In this document: piece by piece, positions 1-26,769 of the stretch
How positions within the stretch are numbered: position 1 is the stretch's first letter
How the letters are laid out: every line of letters starts with the position of its first letter
DNA from: a virus
Reading direction: 5' to 3' (one strand)
Length of the DNA stretch: 26,769 nt
Virus record (IMG/VR): IMGVR_UViG_3300025316_000057
Span: 1 to 26,769 of that record
Translations under genes and position numbers: made by a program
The notes under the pieces: generated by a model
The model's database searches: none
What the model was told of the DNA's origin: nothing
The model's input: the letters and a program-made list of their open reading frames with translations, nothing else

Positions 1-857
1 CCTCTTCCCCTTACGCGGGCATACTGACGCGCCGACGAAGGTATAAAGCCAAGTGTGTGGTGAAGCCTCTTGCCGAATGTGTCCACCGAACAGGTAAGCC
101 ATTTGTCGCTATTCTCCTGTGAATTTATTTCATCGATCTTGGATACCCTGATCTTAAGGGCCTCTAGCCATTCCTGATATTTTACAGGATCTGATAAATC
201 GCTACCCTTTCTTATGGCCGACTCTTCACAGTCTTTAAGATGCTTTTTCAAGAAGGTATCAGAATCGATATCAAAGCAAAGCGTTGAATGCTCCTTGCAT
301 AAAATCTTCCTGTCAATCGAAGAGAACGGCTTTGCTCTTAATTCTACCGCCTTGGCTCTGGAGTTAATGCAGTTACGATTTTTAAGAGTCACCGACTTAA
401 CAGCCGGGTTTTTTAGGATATCAGGATTGATAGCGTAAATCGTGCTGTGCGACAGAGAAGGATTATCCTTATTATGACCGCCATACCTGACAATGGTTAA
501 GATTCCTGCCTCTATGATTTTGGCAAGCAACCCTTTTTCTGTGATTTTACGGTGTTTGCCTTTCCCAATTGTCTTGTTATTCACAAAGCTACCCAGTATC
601 TCTGTAAGAAAATCATAAGGGATAACCCGCTCATTGAACTGTAAATTATGACCGTGATAAGGTTTGCGGTTCCTGTAAGTCCTTTTGTGTTCTAGGATCA
701 CTTGGTTTAAAAATATCCAGAACCTTTCACGCTCTATCCCGTATATGGTTGACCCTAATGATTCTGTCAAAGGTGTCTTAGGCACATCGAAGGTTTTATA
801 GGACTCGGTGTCGATATACTTCTTGATAGCGTCTTCTTCTTCTACTGCGTCATTCAT
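1..857 (-). CDS. DNA polymerase/replication protein, family A-type palm, N-terminal part (gene crosses the window ends)
   Basis: This is the first 285 codons of a replication protein. It starts at ATG 855-857 behind a GAGG box at 867-870 and stays open to position 1. Positions 1-9 are identical to 26761-26769. Joining the ends through this 9-base overlap carries the same frame into the ORF ending at 26157, giving 486 aa. This N-terminal part is basic and charged, with no catalytic motif I recognise. It ends in a stretch with RLHHTLGFIPSSARQY, which in related phage and plasmid proteins sits just before the family A polymerase-like motif A (D-x-x-N-x-Q). The gene heads the early operon, and its leader holds a possible pseudoknot. 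The exact role (polymerase, primer synthesis or repair) is inferred. Confidence 0.75.
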   Translation of the reverse strand, partial: MNDAVEEEDAIKKYIDTESYKTFDVPKTPLTESLGSTIYGIERERFWIFLNQVILEHKRTYRNRKPYHGHNLQFNERVIPYDFLTEILGSFVNNKTIGKGKHRKITEKGLLAKIIEAGILTIVRYGGHNKDNPSLSHSTIYAINPDILKNPAVKSVTLKNRNCINSRAKAVELRAKPFSSIDRKILCKEHSTLCFDIDSDTFLKKHLKDCEESAIRKGSDLSDPVKYQEWLEALKIRVSKIDEINSQENSDKWLTCSVDTFGKRLHHTLGFIPSSARQYARVRGR

Positions 858-866
858 CGTTTTTTA

Positions 867-949
867 CCTCAGTCGTTTAAAGAGTAGTGTGCTGAAACGG
901 AACGACTAACCGCTTGTCCCTCAGAGGATCAATCCGAGGTATCAGCACA
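867..949 (-). promoter_or_regulatory. Possible pseudoknot leader RNA of the polymerase gene
   Basis: Read on the minus strand, two stems interleave. TGTGCTGA (942-949) pairs with TCAGCACA (888-895), 8 bp. AGTCGTT (901-907), inside that loop, pairs with AACGACT (871-877), 7 bp. The second stem abuts the GAGG ribosome-binding site (867-870) of the ATG at 857. A separate hairpin, CCTCGGA-TTGA-TCC-TCT-GAGG (919-939), sits in the first loop. The order A-B-A'-B' defines an H-type pseudoknot. A translational operator, as in T4 gene 32, or a riboswitch-like element would fit. I do not recognise a known riboswitch class. Confidence 0.5.
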
Positions 950-969
950 TCTAATGCATCCACACCCTT

Positions 970-975
970 ATTATA
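970..975 (-). promoter_or_regulatory. -10-like box for the early operon
   Basis: A perfect TATAAT reads on the minus strand at 975-970. Transcription from it would begin near 962, just before the pseudoknot stem at 949, leaving a leader of about 105 nt. No good -35 box is visible at 16-19 bp, so it may need an activator or be fortuitous. Confidence 0.35.
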
Positions 976-1759: not shown

Positions 1760-2209
1760 TTACCTTCTAAACTTCCAAGTCAAATCCTTACCGTCAGGCA
1801 GTGAATAGAAACGCTGATTTGATCCTGCCTCAGTAATGGGTATACCCTGCCATGATCCCGTCTTTATGAAATCTAAGCTTGCAAGGATATCAGTTGAAAC
1901 CTCTTTGATTTCCCTGCCAGTGTAAAGGCACGTCTTATAATCACGTTCCCGAGCCTCTTGCAGATACCTGGGGAAGTCTGCTACCCATTCACCGCCCATA
2001 AAGGTTACGGAACTTGCAAGCCCTCTATGAGCGTCAAGAATGCTTTCGTACTCTTCTAGTCTTAAATCATACCATCCGTATTTCTCCAGACTCTTATAAC
2101 TGCAACCCTTGCACCCCAGCGGACAACCCCTGATAGCCCATGCTAGGCTTATGTGTCCGGGTAACTCTTGCAACACCACGCTTATCTTTGGCCAATACAC
2201 TTCCATCAT
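1760..2209 (-). CDS. nrdG: Anaerobic ribonucleotide reductase activating protein-like radical SAM enzyme
   Basis: A 149-aa radical SAM activase. C29, C33 and C36 form the CxxxCxxC iron-sulfur/SAM motif within RGCPLGCKGC. GGEW at 72-75 is the SAM-binding GGE motif, and SNQR at 130-133 resembles the conserved C-terminal stretch of NrdG. The length is normal for NrdG. In cells NrdG makes the glycyl radical on the class III reductase NrdD, so it supplies dNTPs without oxygen. No nrdD is present in this genome, so the partner would be the host enzyme, or this activase serves another glycyl-radical protein. It is the last gene of the packaging operon, 16 nt after the glycosyltransferase, a typical place for an accessory gene. 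It points to an anaerobic host. Confidence 0.85.
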   Translation of the reverse strand: MMEVYWPKISVVLQELPGHISLAWAIRGCPLGCKGCSYKSLEKYGWYDLRLEEYESILDAHRGLASSVTFMGGEWVADFPRYLQEARERDYKTCLYTGREIKEVSTDILASLDFIKTGSWQGIPITEAGSNQRFYSLPDGKDLTWKFRR

Positions 2210-8067: not shown

Positions 8068-8571
8068 ATGACAAGGAAAAACAAAGCCGTAACCGACACA
8101 GAATTAATTCAAGCTTATCAAGGCATCATTCACACCCTAGCCTTTGGATTATGCAAGAGTAAAAACCACTATTGTTATGATGATCTGGTTCAACAGGGTT
8201 TGATTTCAATTCTCAGACTAAAGGATAGATTCACCTGTAGTGACGCCTATCTATTGCAGTGTTGTAAGCGCGATATGCTGACGATGTACAAACGGCTTAC
8301 CTGTCCAGTTTGTTTAACCAGAGATCATAACCTTCCAAAGTCGATTCCTACCGCAGTAGAGCTTGACGAAAGCTTGCCTGATAAGGAAGAAATAGATGAT
8401 CAAAGCGAACTTATGACGGTCATAAAAGACAGGGTATCTAGGCTTCCAGCCGATGAAAGAAAACAAGTTGAAAGCTATATGGCCAATATCCTGTCTGCCA
8501 AAGGTGGAAGAACATCTGATAGAGCCAAAGAGATTTTACGGAGAATCACACAGGATCTTAATTCTTTTTGA
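8068..8571 (+). CDS. Sigma-70 family-like protein, possible late transcription factor
   Basis: A 167-aa protein like a small (ECF-type) sigma factor. Residues about 10-75 follow region 2: a helix with QAYQGIIHTLAF, the signature-like DDLVQQGLISILRLKDRF, and DAYLLQCCKRDMLTMYKRL, which aligns with the core-binding and -10-reading helices. After an acidic linker, residues about 118-160 (RLPADERKQVESY...GRTSDRAKEILRRI) look like a degenerate region 4. The ribosome-binding site is weak (GAG at 8060-8062). It is the only plus-strand gene within the late half, divergent from the packaging operon and convergent with the capsid-tail operon. I infer that it directs host RNA polymerase to the conserved late element. 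An anti-sigma or unrelated regulator remains possible. Confidence 0.65.
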   Translation: MTRKNKAVTDTELIQAYQGIIHTLAFGLCKSKNHYCYDDLVQQGLISILRLKDRFTCSDAYLLQCCKRDMLTMYKRLTCPVCLTRDHNLPKSIPTAVELDESLPDKEEIDDQSELMTVIKDRVSRLPADERKQVESYMANILSAKGGRTSDRAKEILRRITQDLNSF

Positions 8572-26156: not shown

Positions 26157-26769
26157 TCACCCCTCTACGAAATCCATAAACCAAGTTGTCTTAAAATTAG
26201 GTTTTAGCCCTGAATATTTAATCTCTTCCGTCCATTGGCTTGCCATTGTTTCAACCATGATATTTTCTACATCTTGCGATGCGTCTAAGGCATATGACTG
26301 CTTCTTTGGACCAAAAACGATTACCGAGTCATGCACCGGGATAAAGCGAATTCTCTTTTGTGCCAGCTTATTCCATACCTGCCTTGCCCATTTGGTTTCA
26401 GCCCTCTGTGCCTTGATGCTGTTGTTTTTGTAAGGAGCGTACTTGTCCCCCATTTCTTTTTTGAAAAATTCGATCTGCTTTGTTTTCTCAGCCGTCAGAT
26501 ATTTAGCCATGTCGGGATAGAATTCACTCATAGCTTTAAGCTCAGAGGAATCTGATTGACCGAAGAGGGCTTTAAACACTGCTTCCTTGGCTATAGCCCT
26601 AGAACCAAATCCCCTATGCTGTGCGTACTGCTTATAAAGATCGTTTTTCAAGTCTCTATTAAAGTCATCGTCTTCCACACCGTCACGGATAGCGCAAAGG
26701 GCTTGTAGATAGGCCTGACAGTTACGCAAATCGATCTCGAACAAAGGCACAAGCTTTGATCCTCTTCCC
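26157..26769 (-). CDS. DNA polymerase/replication protein, C-terminal catalytic part (continues from position 1)
   Basis: Codons 287-486 of the polymerase that begins at 857. In joined numbering it has motif A-like EIDLRNCQ at 294-301 (D296), an O-helix-like KEAVFKALFGQ at 344-354 and motif C-like PVHDSVIV with H429 and D430. This trio is the signature of a divergent family A polymerase palm found in phages and plasmids, smaller than PolA and without the exonuclease domain. A GTG at 26750 could be taken as a start, but the motif region would then lack its N-terminal half, and the frame is open to the window end. It ends 8 bases before the 92-aa gene. Confidence 0.8.
   Translation of the reverse strand, partial: GRGSKLVPLFEIDLRNCQAYLQALCAIRDGVEDDDFNRDLKNDLYKQYAQHRGFGSRAIAKEAVFKALFGQSDSSELKAMSEFYPDMAKYLTAEKTKQIEFFKKEMGDKYAPYKNNSIKAQRAETKWARQVWNKLAQKRIRFIPVHDSVIVFGPKKQSYALDASQDVENIMVETMASQWTEEIKYSGLKPNFKTTWFMDFVEG
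26761..26769. repeat. Terminal 9-base overlap with positions 1-9
   Basis: CCTCTTCCC is present at both ends. It joins the two halves of the polymerase in frame, so it marks a circular or circularly permuted molecule of 26,760 bp. Confidence 0.8.

Follow-up and report, generated by a model that had tools for sequence, protein, structure and literature searches.

A predicted three-way junction with a Shine–Dalgarno-abutting pseudoknot in the leader of a family A-like phage DNA polymerase gene, a plausible translational control element

The window, i.e. the whole stretch of DNA that was analysed, comprises a single virus record (26,769 bases), and its other genes are those of a tailed phage, including terminase, portal, capsid and a large serine recombinase. 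The leader considered here precedes a polymerase gene that lies in two parts at the ends of the record.

Positions 3 to 857, minus strand: 5′ part of the polymerase gene, ATG at 857-855, 285 residues, running off the record end.
Positions 26157 to 26768, minus strand: 3′ part of the polymerase gene, reached across the joined ends, coding for a family A-like palm/fingers region with motifs A, B and C.

Both record ends (window positions 1-9 and 26761-26769) carry the same 9 nt, CCTCTTCCC, and the minus-strand frame that leaves at position 3 resumes in frame at 26768-26157; thus the phage genome in this record is probably circular or permuted, and the joined gene product has about 486 residues. 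The next gene upstream of the leader (1760-2209, minus strand) resembles anaerobic ribonucleotide reductase activating proteins, with up to 38% identity to Vibrio phage proteins, and hints at an anaerobic host. Elsewhere in the window, a small protein encoded at 8068-8571 on the plus strand, opposite to its neighbours, matches sigma-70 region 2 weakly (E 0.0013, short of the cut-off).

The polymerase leader sits in an intergenic region of roughly 900 bp with other dyads and repeats. These include an imperfect 14-nt direct repeat, GCCTTTTAACCATT (86%), at 994-1007 and 1109-1122, 115 nt apart, and an AT-rich dyad at 1208-1280 with 29-nt arms that are 72% complementary, a candidate terminator, attachment site or origin, which gives the strongest folding signal of the intergenic region (scan 1200-1299, z -4.4 on the minus and -4.1 on the plus strand).

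The first-pass annotation had called the transcript a polymerase mRNA. In Pfam neither part of the gene product attained the cut-off, and PHROGs gave weak matches for the C-terminal part only. As the mark of family A we used motifs A, B (RxxxKxxxFxxx[FY]G) and C (HD) in this order, and the window protein carries FEIDLRN.Q, R...K...F...FG and VHDS in that order, blocks which we take to be its motifs A, B and C. FEID..N.Q, K...F/Y...FG and VHDS are shared with its homologues, and E11, D13, N16, Q18, K61, F69, G70, H146, D147 and S148 are invariant across 33 aligned sequences. Motif C of family A polymerases usually reads HDE; in the window polymerase it reads HDS. When the C-terminal 203 residues were modelled with homologous stretches, AF2 gave a mean pLDDT of 79.7, and the predicted domain has the palm/fingers fold of family A DNA polymerases. 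Ranks 1-10 of Foldseek with this model were all T7 DNA polymerase (E 5.1e-3 to 2.0e-2), and a second structure aligner matched Bst, Taq and T7 DNA polymerases with Z up to 11.6, the top two rows being Bst polymerase I (rmsd 3.0-3.4 over 168-173 residues). The model of the N-terminal domain was discarded as too poor (mean pLDDT 45.4), and a PDB profile search with the C-terminal alignment, which gave 3 matches with a best E of 0.099, was set aside. Among viral matches the best (E 1.7e-5) was to a putative DNA polymerase I from an uncultured marine phage. The word polymerase is thus supported by the motifs together with the matches from both aligners, and the modelled domain supports a divergent family A-type DNA polymerase, whose activity is predicted.

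No relative came out of searches in which the query was the terminase, the capsid, the joined polymerase or one of its two parts. An alignment-based search returned three distant loci in viral contigs and no locus in genome contigs, and three motif patterns returned 7, 48 and 15 stretches in viral contigs, with six distant homologues among the seven stretches of the first. The alignments combined the window protein with three of these six homologues (A1), with 32 of 34 homologue stretches, L007 and L032 being omitted as near duplicates (A2), or with 14 homologues (A4). Identity to the window protein was 21-25% for three aligned homologues and 23-30% in the C-terminal part for 32 stretches, and in tblastn of the joined polymerase on the motif stretches no long match exceeded about 28% identity. 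Neither polymerase part matched the phage collection in tblastn, the C-terminal part, which alone was searched against the plasmid collection, had no match there, and blastn of 840-1760 against phages and plasmids gave short matches only (E 0.07 to 0.9). Pfam on the 33 members of A2 gave scattered weak matches to unrelated families and none to a polymerase family. The loci L002-L058, on AT-rich phage contigs of which many are large, encode a family of proteins of roughly 400 residues that combine a family A-like palm (motifs FEID..NSQ, YKVLFG and VHDSII) with a conserved N-terminal region.

The leader structure is coded on the minus strand. Two perfect interleaved stems of 8 and 7 bp, the second directly adjoining the Shine–Dalgarno (SD) box, and an extra hairpin within the first loop had been described in the first-pass annotation, and they were found again at exactly its positions, as follows.

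Positions 970 to 975, minus strand: TATAAT, a perfect hexamer and possible -10 box, without a -35.
Positions 942 to 949, minus strand: 5′ strand of P1 (stem A), 8 Watson–Crick pairs with 895-888.
Positions 919 to 939, minus strand: P2 hairpin, 939-933/925-919, 7 bp including one G.U, 7-nt loop 932-926.
Positions 896 to 914, minus strand: P3 hairpin, 914-910/900-896, 5 bp including one G.U, 9-nt loop 909-901.
Positions 901 to 907, minus strand: 5′ strand of the pseudoknot helix (stem B), inside the P3 loop.
Positions 888 to 895, minus strand: 3′ strand of P1, partner of 949-942.
Positions 882 to 884, minus strand: CUC, predicted to form a weak pairing with the SD bases GAG 870-868 as long as the pseudoknot is open.
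Positions 871 to 877, minus strand: 3′ strand of the pseudoknot helix, abutting the SD, 7 Watson–Crick pairs with 907-901.
Positions 866 to 870, minus strand: SD box GAGGU, read in the sequence.

Along the minus strand from 5′ to 3′, P1 is followed by two unpaired bases, P2, four unpaired bases, P3 and then, without a spacer, P1 again, and P1 closes a three-way junction holding the two hairpins P2 and P3. P1 could be extended by pairing of 953-951 with 887-885, with one unpaired A between. P1, P2 and the pseudoknot helix had all been seen before, but the third hairpin, P3, had been overlooked, hence the earlier description as a plain A-B-A′-B′ layout. The P2 loop reads UUGAUCC and the P3 loop UUAGUCGUU; seven of the nine P3 loop bases (907-901) are complementary to 877-871, and stem B ends 0 nt before the SD and 13 nt before the ATG. 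Modelled in this way, the leader is predicted to be a canonical H-type pseudoknot with P3 as stem 1 (5 bp), a loop 1 of 2 nt, a stem 2 of 7 bp and a loop 2 of 0 nt, and helices of 5 and 7 bp with such loops would, in our reading, allow coaxial stacking.

Taken as separate duplexes, the 8-bp helix contributes about -11.3 kcal/mol and the 7-bp helix about -7.1 kcal/mol. The nested junction (P1-P3) is the minimum free energy (MFE) structure and the centroid alike; its 65-nt domain has z -2.54, with 3/200 shuffles as good, and the entire 105-nt leader has z -1.49, with 19/200 as good. In an 80-nt scan along 820-1859, the segment 880-959 reached z -2.75 on the minus vs -1.21 on the plus strand, and the two G.U pairs in P2 and P3 are possible on the minus strand only, as expected for the polymerase mRNA. 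Across 40 transcripts that differed in their ends (5′ end 1760 to 955, 3′ end 700 to 858), mean pair probabilities were in most cases about 0.95 for P1, 0.87 for P2 and 0.73 for P3, and the lowest case, transcript 1000-858, gave 0.52, 0.48 and 0.41. Because these probabilities are stable across transcript ends, the predicted junction is independent of the promoter proposed earlier, a -10 box that would start the transcript just before the structure. The TATAAT of that proposal is there, but no -35 hexamer lies 16-18 nt upstream of it, and with 14 copies over both strands of the window TATAAT is, by our estimate, about as frequent as expected by chance; the proposed promoter has no support above that level. 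A 28-codon open frame (877-963, minus strand, GTG 963-961 to TAA 879-877) runs across the entire junction and ends at the pseudoknot strand, leaving 19 nt to the ATG of the polymerase; by eye it has no SD at a suitable distance, and it is a possible leader peptide.

The bare stem pair is unremarkable at the scale of the window, since 62 of 100 whole-window shuffles contain at least one interleaved 8+7 pair (mean 1.14). Among 4000 dinucleotide shuffles of the leader (105 nt), 6 gave interleaved perfect stems of 8 and 7 bp; of 3556 sliding windows covering both strands of the window, 4 held such a pair, all at the leader locus. The observed fold energy was reached by 15 of 2000 leader shuffles and a loop pseudoknot of at least seven pairs by 11 of 2000, both together by none (0/2000). 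We also collected SD-bearing leaders from the window and the collected loci (frames of at least 100 aa with an SD-like word, identical leaders counted once; 145 leaders, 17 of them from the window), and a loop pseudoknot of at least seven pairs was present in five of the 145, with gaps to the SD of 0, 9, 6, 2 and 9 nt, the polymerase leader being the sole 0-nt case. What is unusual is the combination of location, fold strength and geometry. We take this as moderate evidence for a leader function, weakened in that the chance tests were framed after the structure had been seen. Elsewhere among the collected loci, L041 (plus strand, start near 1097) has a leader with a perfect hairpin-loop match of 10 nt, which stops 2 nt short of an SD-like word.

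For the distant homologues, start codons were picked by eye, and 31 of the 32 chosen starts were examined, L030 lying too near its end. The 31 leaders have 10-32% GC and are mostly without a strong fold; a loop match of at least seven bases is present in four of them, in sequence of 11-30% GC, and no shared structure could be read across the 31. A covariance model of the junction, run over 73 sources (737,245 bases), matched the window itself only. Rfam covariance models gave 0 matches at gathering score over the whole window, and Rfam 15 gave 0 matches at E <= 10 in 780-1760, which agrees with the earlier statement that the leader fits no named class.

We propose, with roughly even confidence, that the leader is a cis-acting translational control element in which the junction P1-P3 is closed by the SD-flank pseudoknot. 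On the polymerase mRNA, P1, P2 and P3 would form a three-way junction closed by an H-type pseudoknot, in which the P3 loop would pair with the seven bases directly upstream of the SD. The pseudoknot helix would then border the ribosome-binding site on its 5′ side, and its forming or breaking may alter access of the 30S subunit to the SD. With the pseudoknot open, CUC 884-882 could pair weakly with the SD, and in the leader MFE it is paired with GAG 870-868; with the pseudoknot closed, this CUC–SD hairpin should be excluded. When the pseudoknot was modelled closed and the CUC hairpin excluded, the unpaired probability of the first SD base rose from 0.01-0.11 to 0.54-0.98 in 3/3 contexts, and the remaining SD bases and the AUG had no consistent shift. 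Due to this lack of a consistent shift, the modelling favours neither on (as in repZ) nor off as the direction of control. A fully nested fold sequestering the SD (939-935/870-866 plus stem B) was rejected, at -8.3 vs -28.4 kcal/mol. A translational switch, as suggested in the first-pass annotation, is plausible from the predicted position of the pseudoknot against the SD.

If such a switch operates, its likeliest triggers would be, in this order, the polymerase binding to the leader of its mRNA, an RNA (antisense or otherwise) that competes for the P3 loop, and a metabolite. The T4 replication proteins gp32 and gp43 repress their own mRNAs, gp32 via a pseudoknot and gp43 via a hairpin, as described in a 2010 review (PMC3014915), and by this analogy the polymerase may be taken as the first candidate ligand of the leader. 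We consider it unlikely, as a complete picture, that the leader is a new phage translational operator, i.e. a three-way-junction RNA with a P3-loop/SD-flank pseudoknot that would be bound by its own family A-type polymerase, free polymerase thereby switching its own synthesis. A function of the leader as such is plausible, with the balance close to even.

The main rival is a fold that arose by chance, where a GC-richer stretch folds well and has a 7-base complement beside the SD without selected function, and we give it a substantial probability, somewhat short of an even chance. It would agree with the 8+7 pairs in 62/100 shuffled windows, the z of merely -1.49 for the whole leader, the 5/145 leaders with a loop pseudoknot of at least seven pairs, the lack of conservation evidence from the covariance model (73 sources) and the 31 distant leaders, and the choice of tests after the fact; however, it sits poorly with the 0/2000 shuffles that combine energy and loop pseudoknot, with folding that is stronger on the minus than on the plus strand, and with a pseudoknot that adjoins the SD of a replication gene with 0 nt between. 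The strand preference (z -2.75 vs -1.21) also bears on the reading in which the arms serve not as RNA structure but as inverted repeats that a DNA-binding replication protein would recognise, as in an operator or origin. The replication gene next to it and the further dyads and repeats in the intergenic region (roughly 900 bp) would suit this reading, but the stronger fold on the mRNA strand and two G.U pairs, which suit an RNA of one strand only, speak against it; moreover, neither stem arm recurs elsewhere beyond chance, so operator or origin repeats are not favoured, and we hold a DNA-level element to be very unlikely.

Leaders of the repZ type have a leader peptide with coupled translation and the loop motif 5′-rUUGGCG-3′. 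A control of this kind, in which the pseudoknot would be the active state needed for translation and an antisense RNA or a coupled leader peptide would prevent or permit it, is distinctly unlikely in our judgement. The layout of a hairpin loop pairing with the SD flank of a replication gene is the same (PMC9977716, PMC8383071), the first SD base is freed when the pseudoknot is modelled closed, and the 28-codon frame at 963-877 overlaps the junction and ends at the pseudoknot strand. However, this frame is without a properly spaced SD, the search for antisense promoters gave only TATACT at 815 (plus strand), without a -35, and 5′-rUUGGCG-3′ is absent from the P3 loop. A ligand-sensing riboswitch of an undescribed class would account for a three-way junction with an SD-linked pseudoknot, which is a typical riboswitch layout; but Rfam has no match at E <= 10, the covariance model found no second copy among the collected loci (73 sources), and the gene codes for a replication enzyme, not a metabolic one, and we regard this as highly improbable, the least probable of the readings.

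The reading that we prefer, a translational control element closed by the SD-flank pseudoknot, can be compared with several known systems. In the preQ1 and SAM-II riboswitches an SD-adjacent pseudoknot serves as a translational switch. The phage leader is like them in the predicted pseudoknot beside the SD, and unlike them in that at E <= 10 no Rfam class matches it. A literature search recognised no such leader on a family A polymerase gene, and we know of no studied leader for the small family A-like polymerases.

The gene 32 operator of T4, T2 and RB69 has an H-type pseudoknot in the leader on the 5′ side of the SD, and 3′ of this pseudoknot come >40 nt of less structured RNA carrying UUAAA/UAAA repeats (PMC3014915, PMC535899); the 2010 review considers T4-type gene 32 to be perhaps still the sole viral pseudoknot in translational autoregulation (PMC3014915). 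As with gene 32, the window has a phage replication gene and a predicted H-type pseudoknot in the leader 5′ of the SD. Unlike gene 32, which encodes a single-strand binding protein, the window gene is polymerase-like, and its leader has a pseudoknot that abuts the SD, a three-way junction and a single UUAAA (880-876); a less structured repeat region of >40 nt was not found, the pseudoknot ending 13 nt before the ATG. The gene 43 operator of T4 and RB69 likewise belongs to a polymerase gene, but one of another family than the family A-like polymerase of the window, and it is a hairpin with a UAAC loop, for which the same review reports no evidence of a pseudoknot (PMC3014915). No UAAC-loop hairpin was found in our leader, whose loops read UUGAUCC and UUAGUCGUU.

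In plasmid repZ, translation depends on a pseudoknot upstream of the ribosome-binding site, which the antisense Inc RNA blocks (PMC9977716, PMC8383071). The phage leader is like it in being a replication-gene leader with a predicted pseudoknot upstream of the ribosome-binding site, and the repZ-type pairing of loop and SD flank is predicted here at 907-901/877-871, 0 nt from the SD; the protein family, the host and the three-way junction of the phage leader differ. Since the defining features of the gene 32, gene 43 and repZ classes fail here, the leader is outside these classes, and the likeness is one of layout. Should the element prove real, a phage would here use the shape of a compact RNA to set the amount of its replication enzyme, and this would be a second phage case beside the gene 32 paradigm, tied to the pseudoknot control of plasmid replication.
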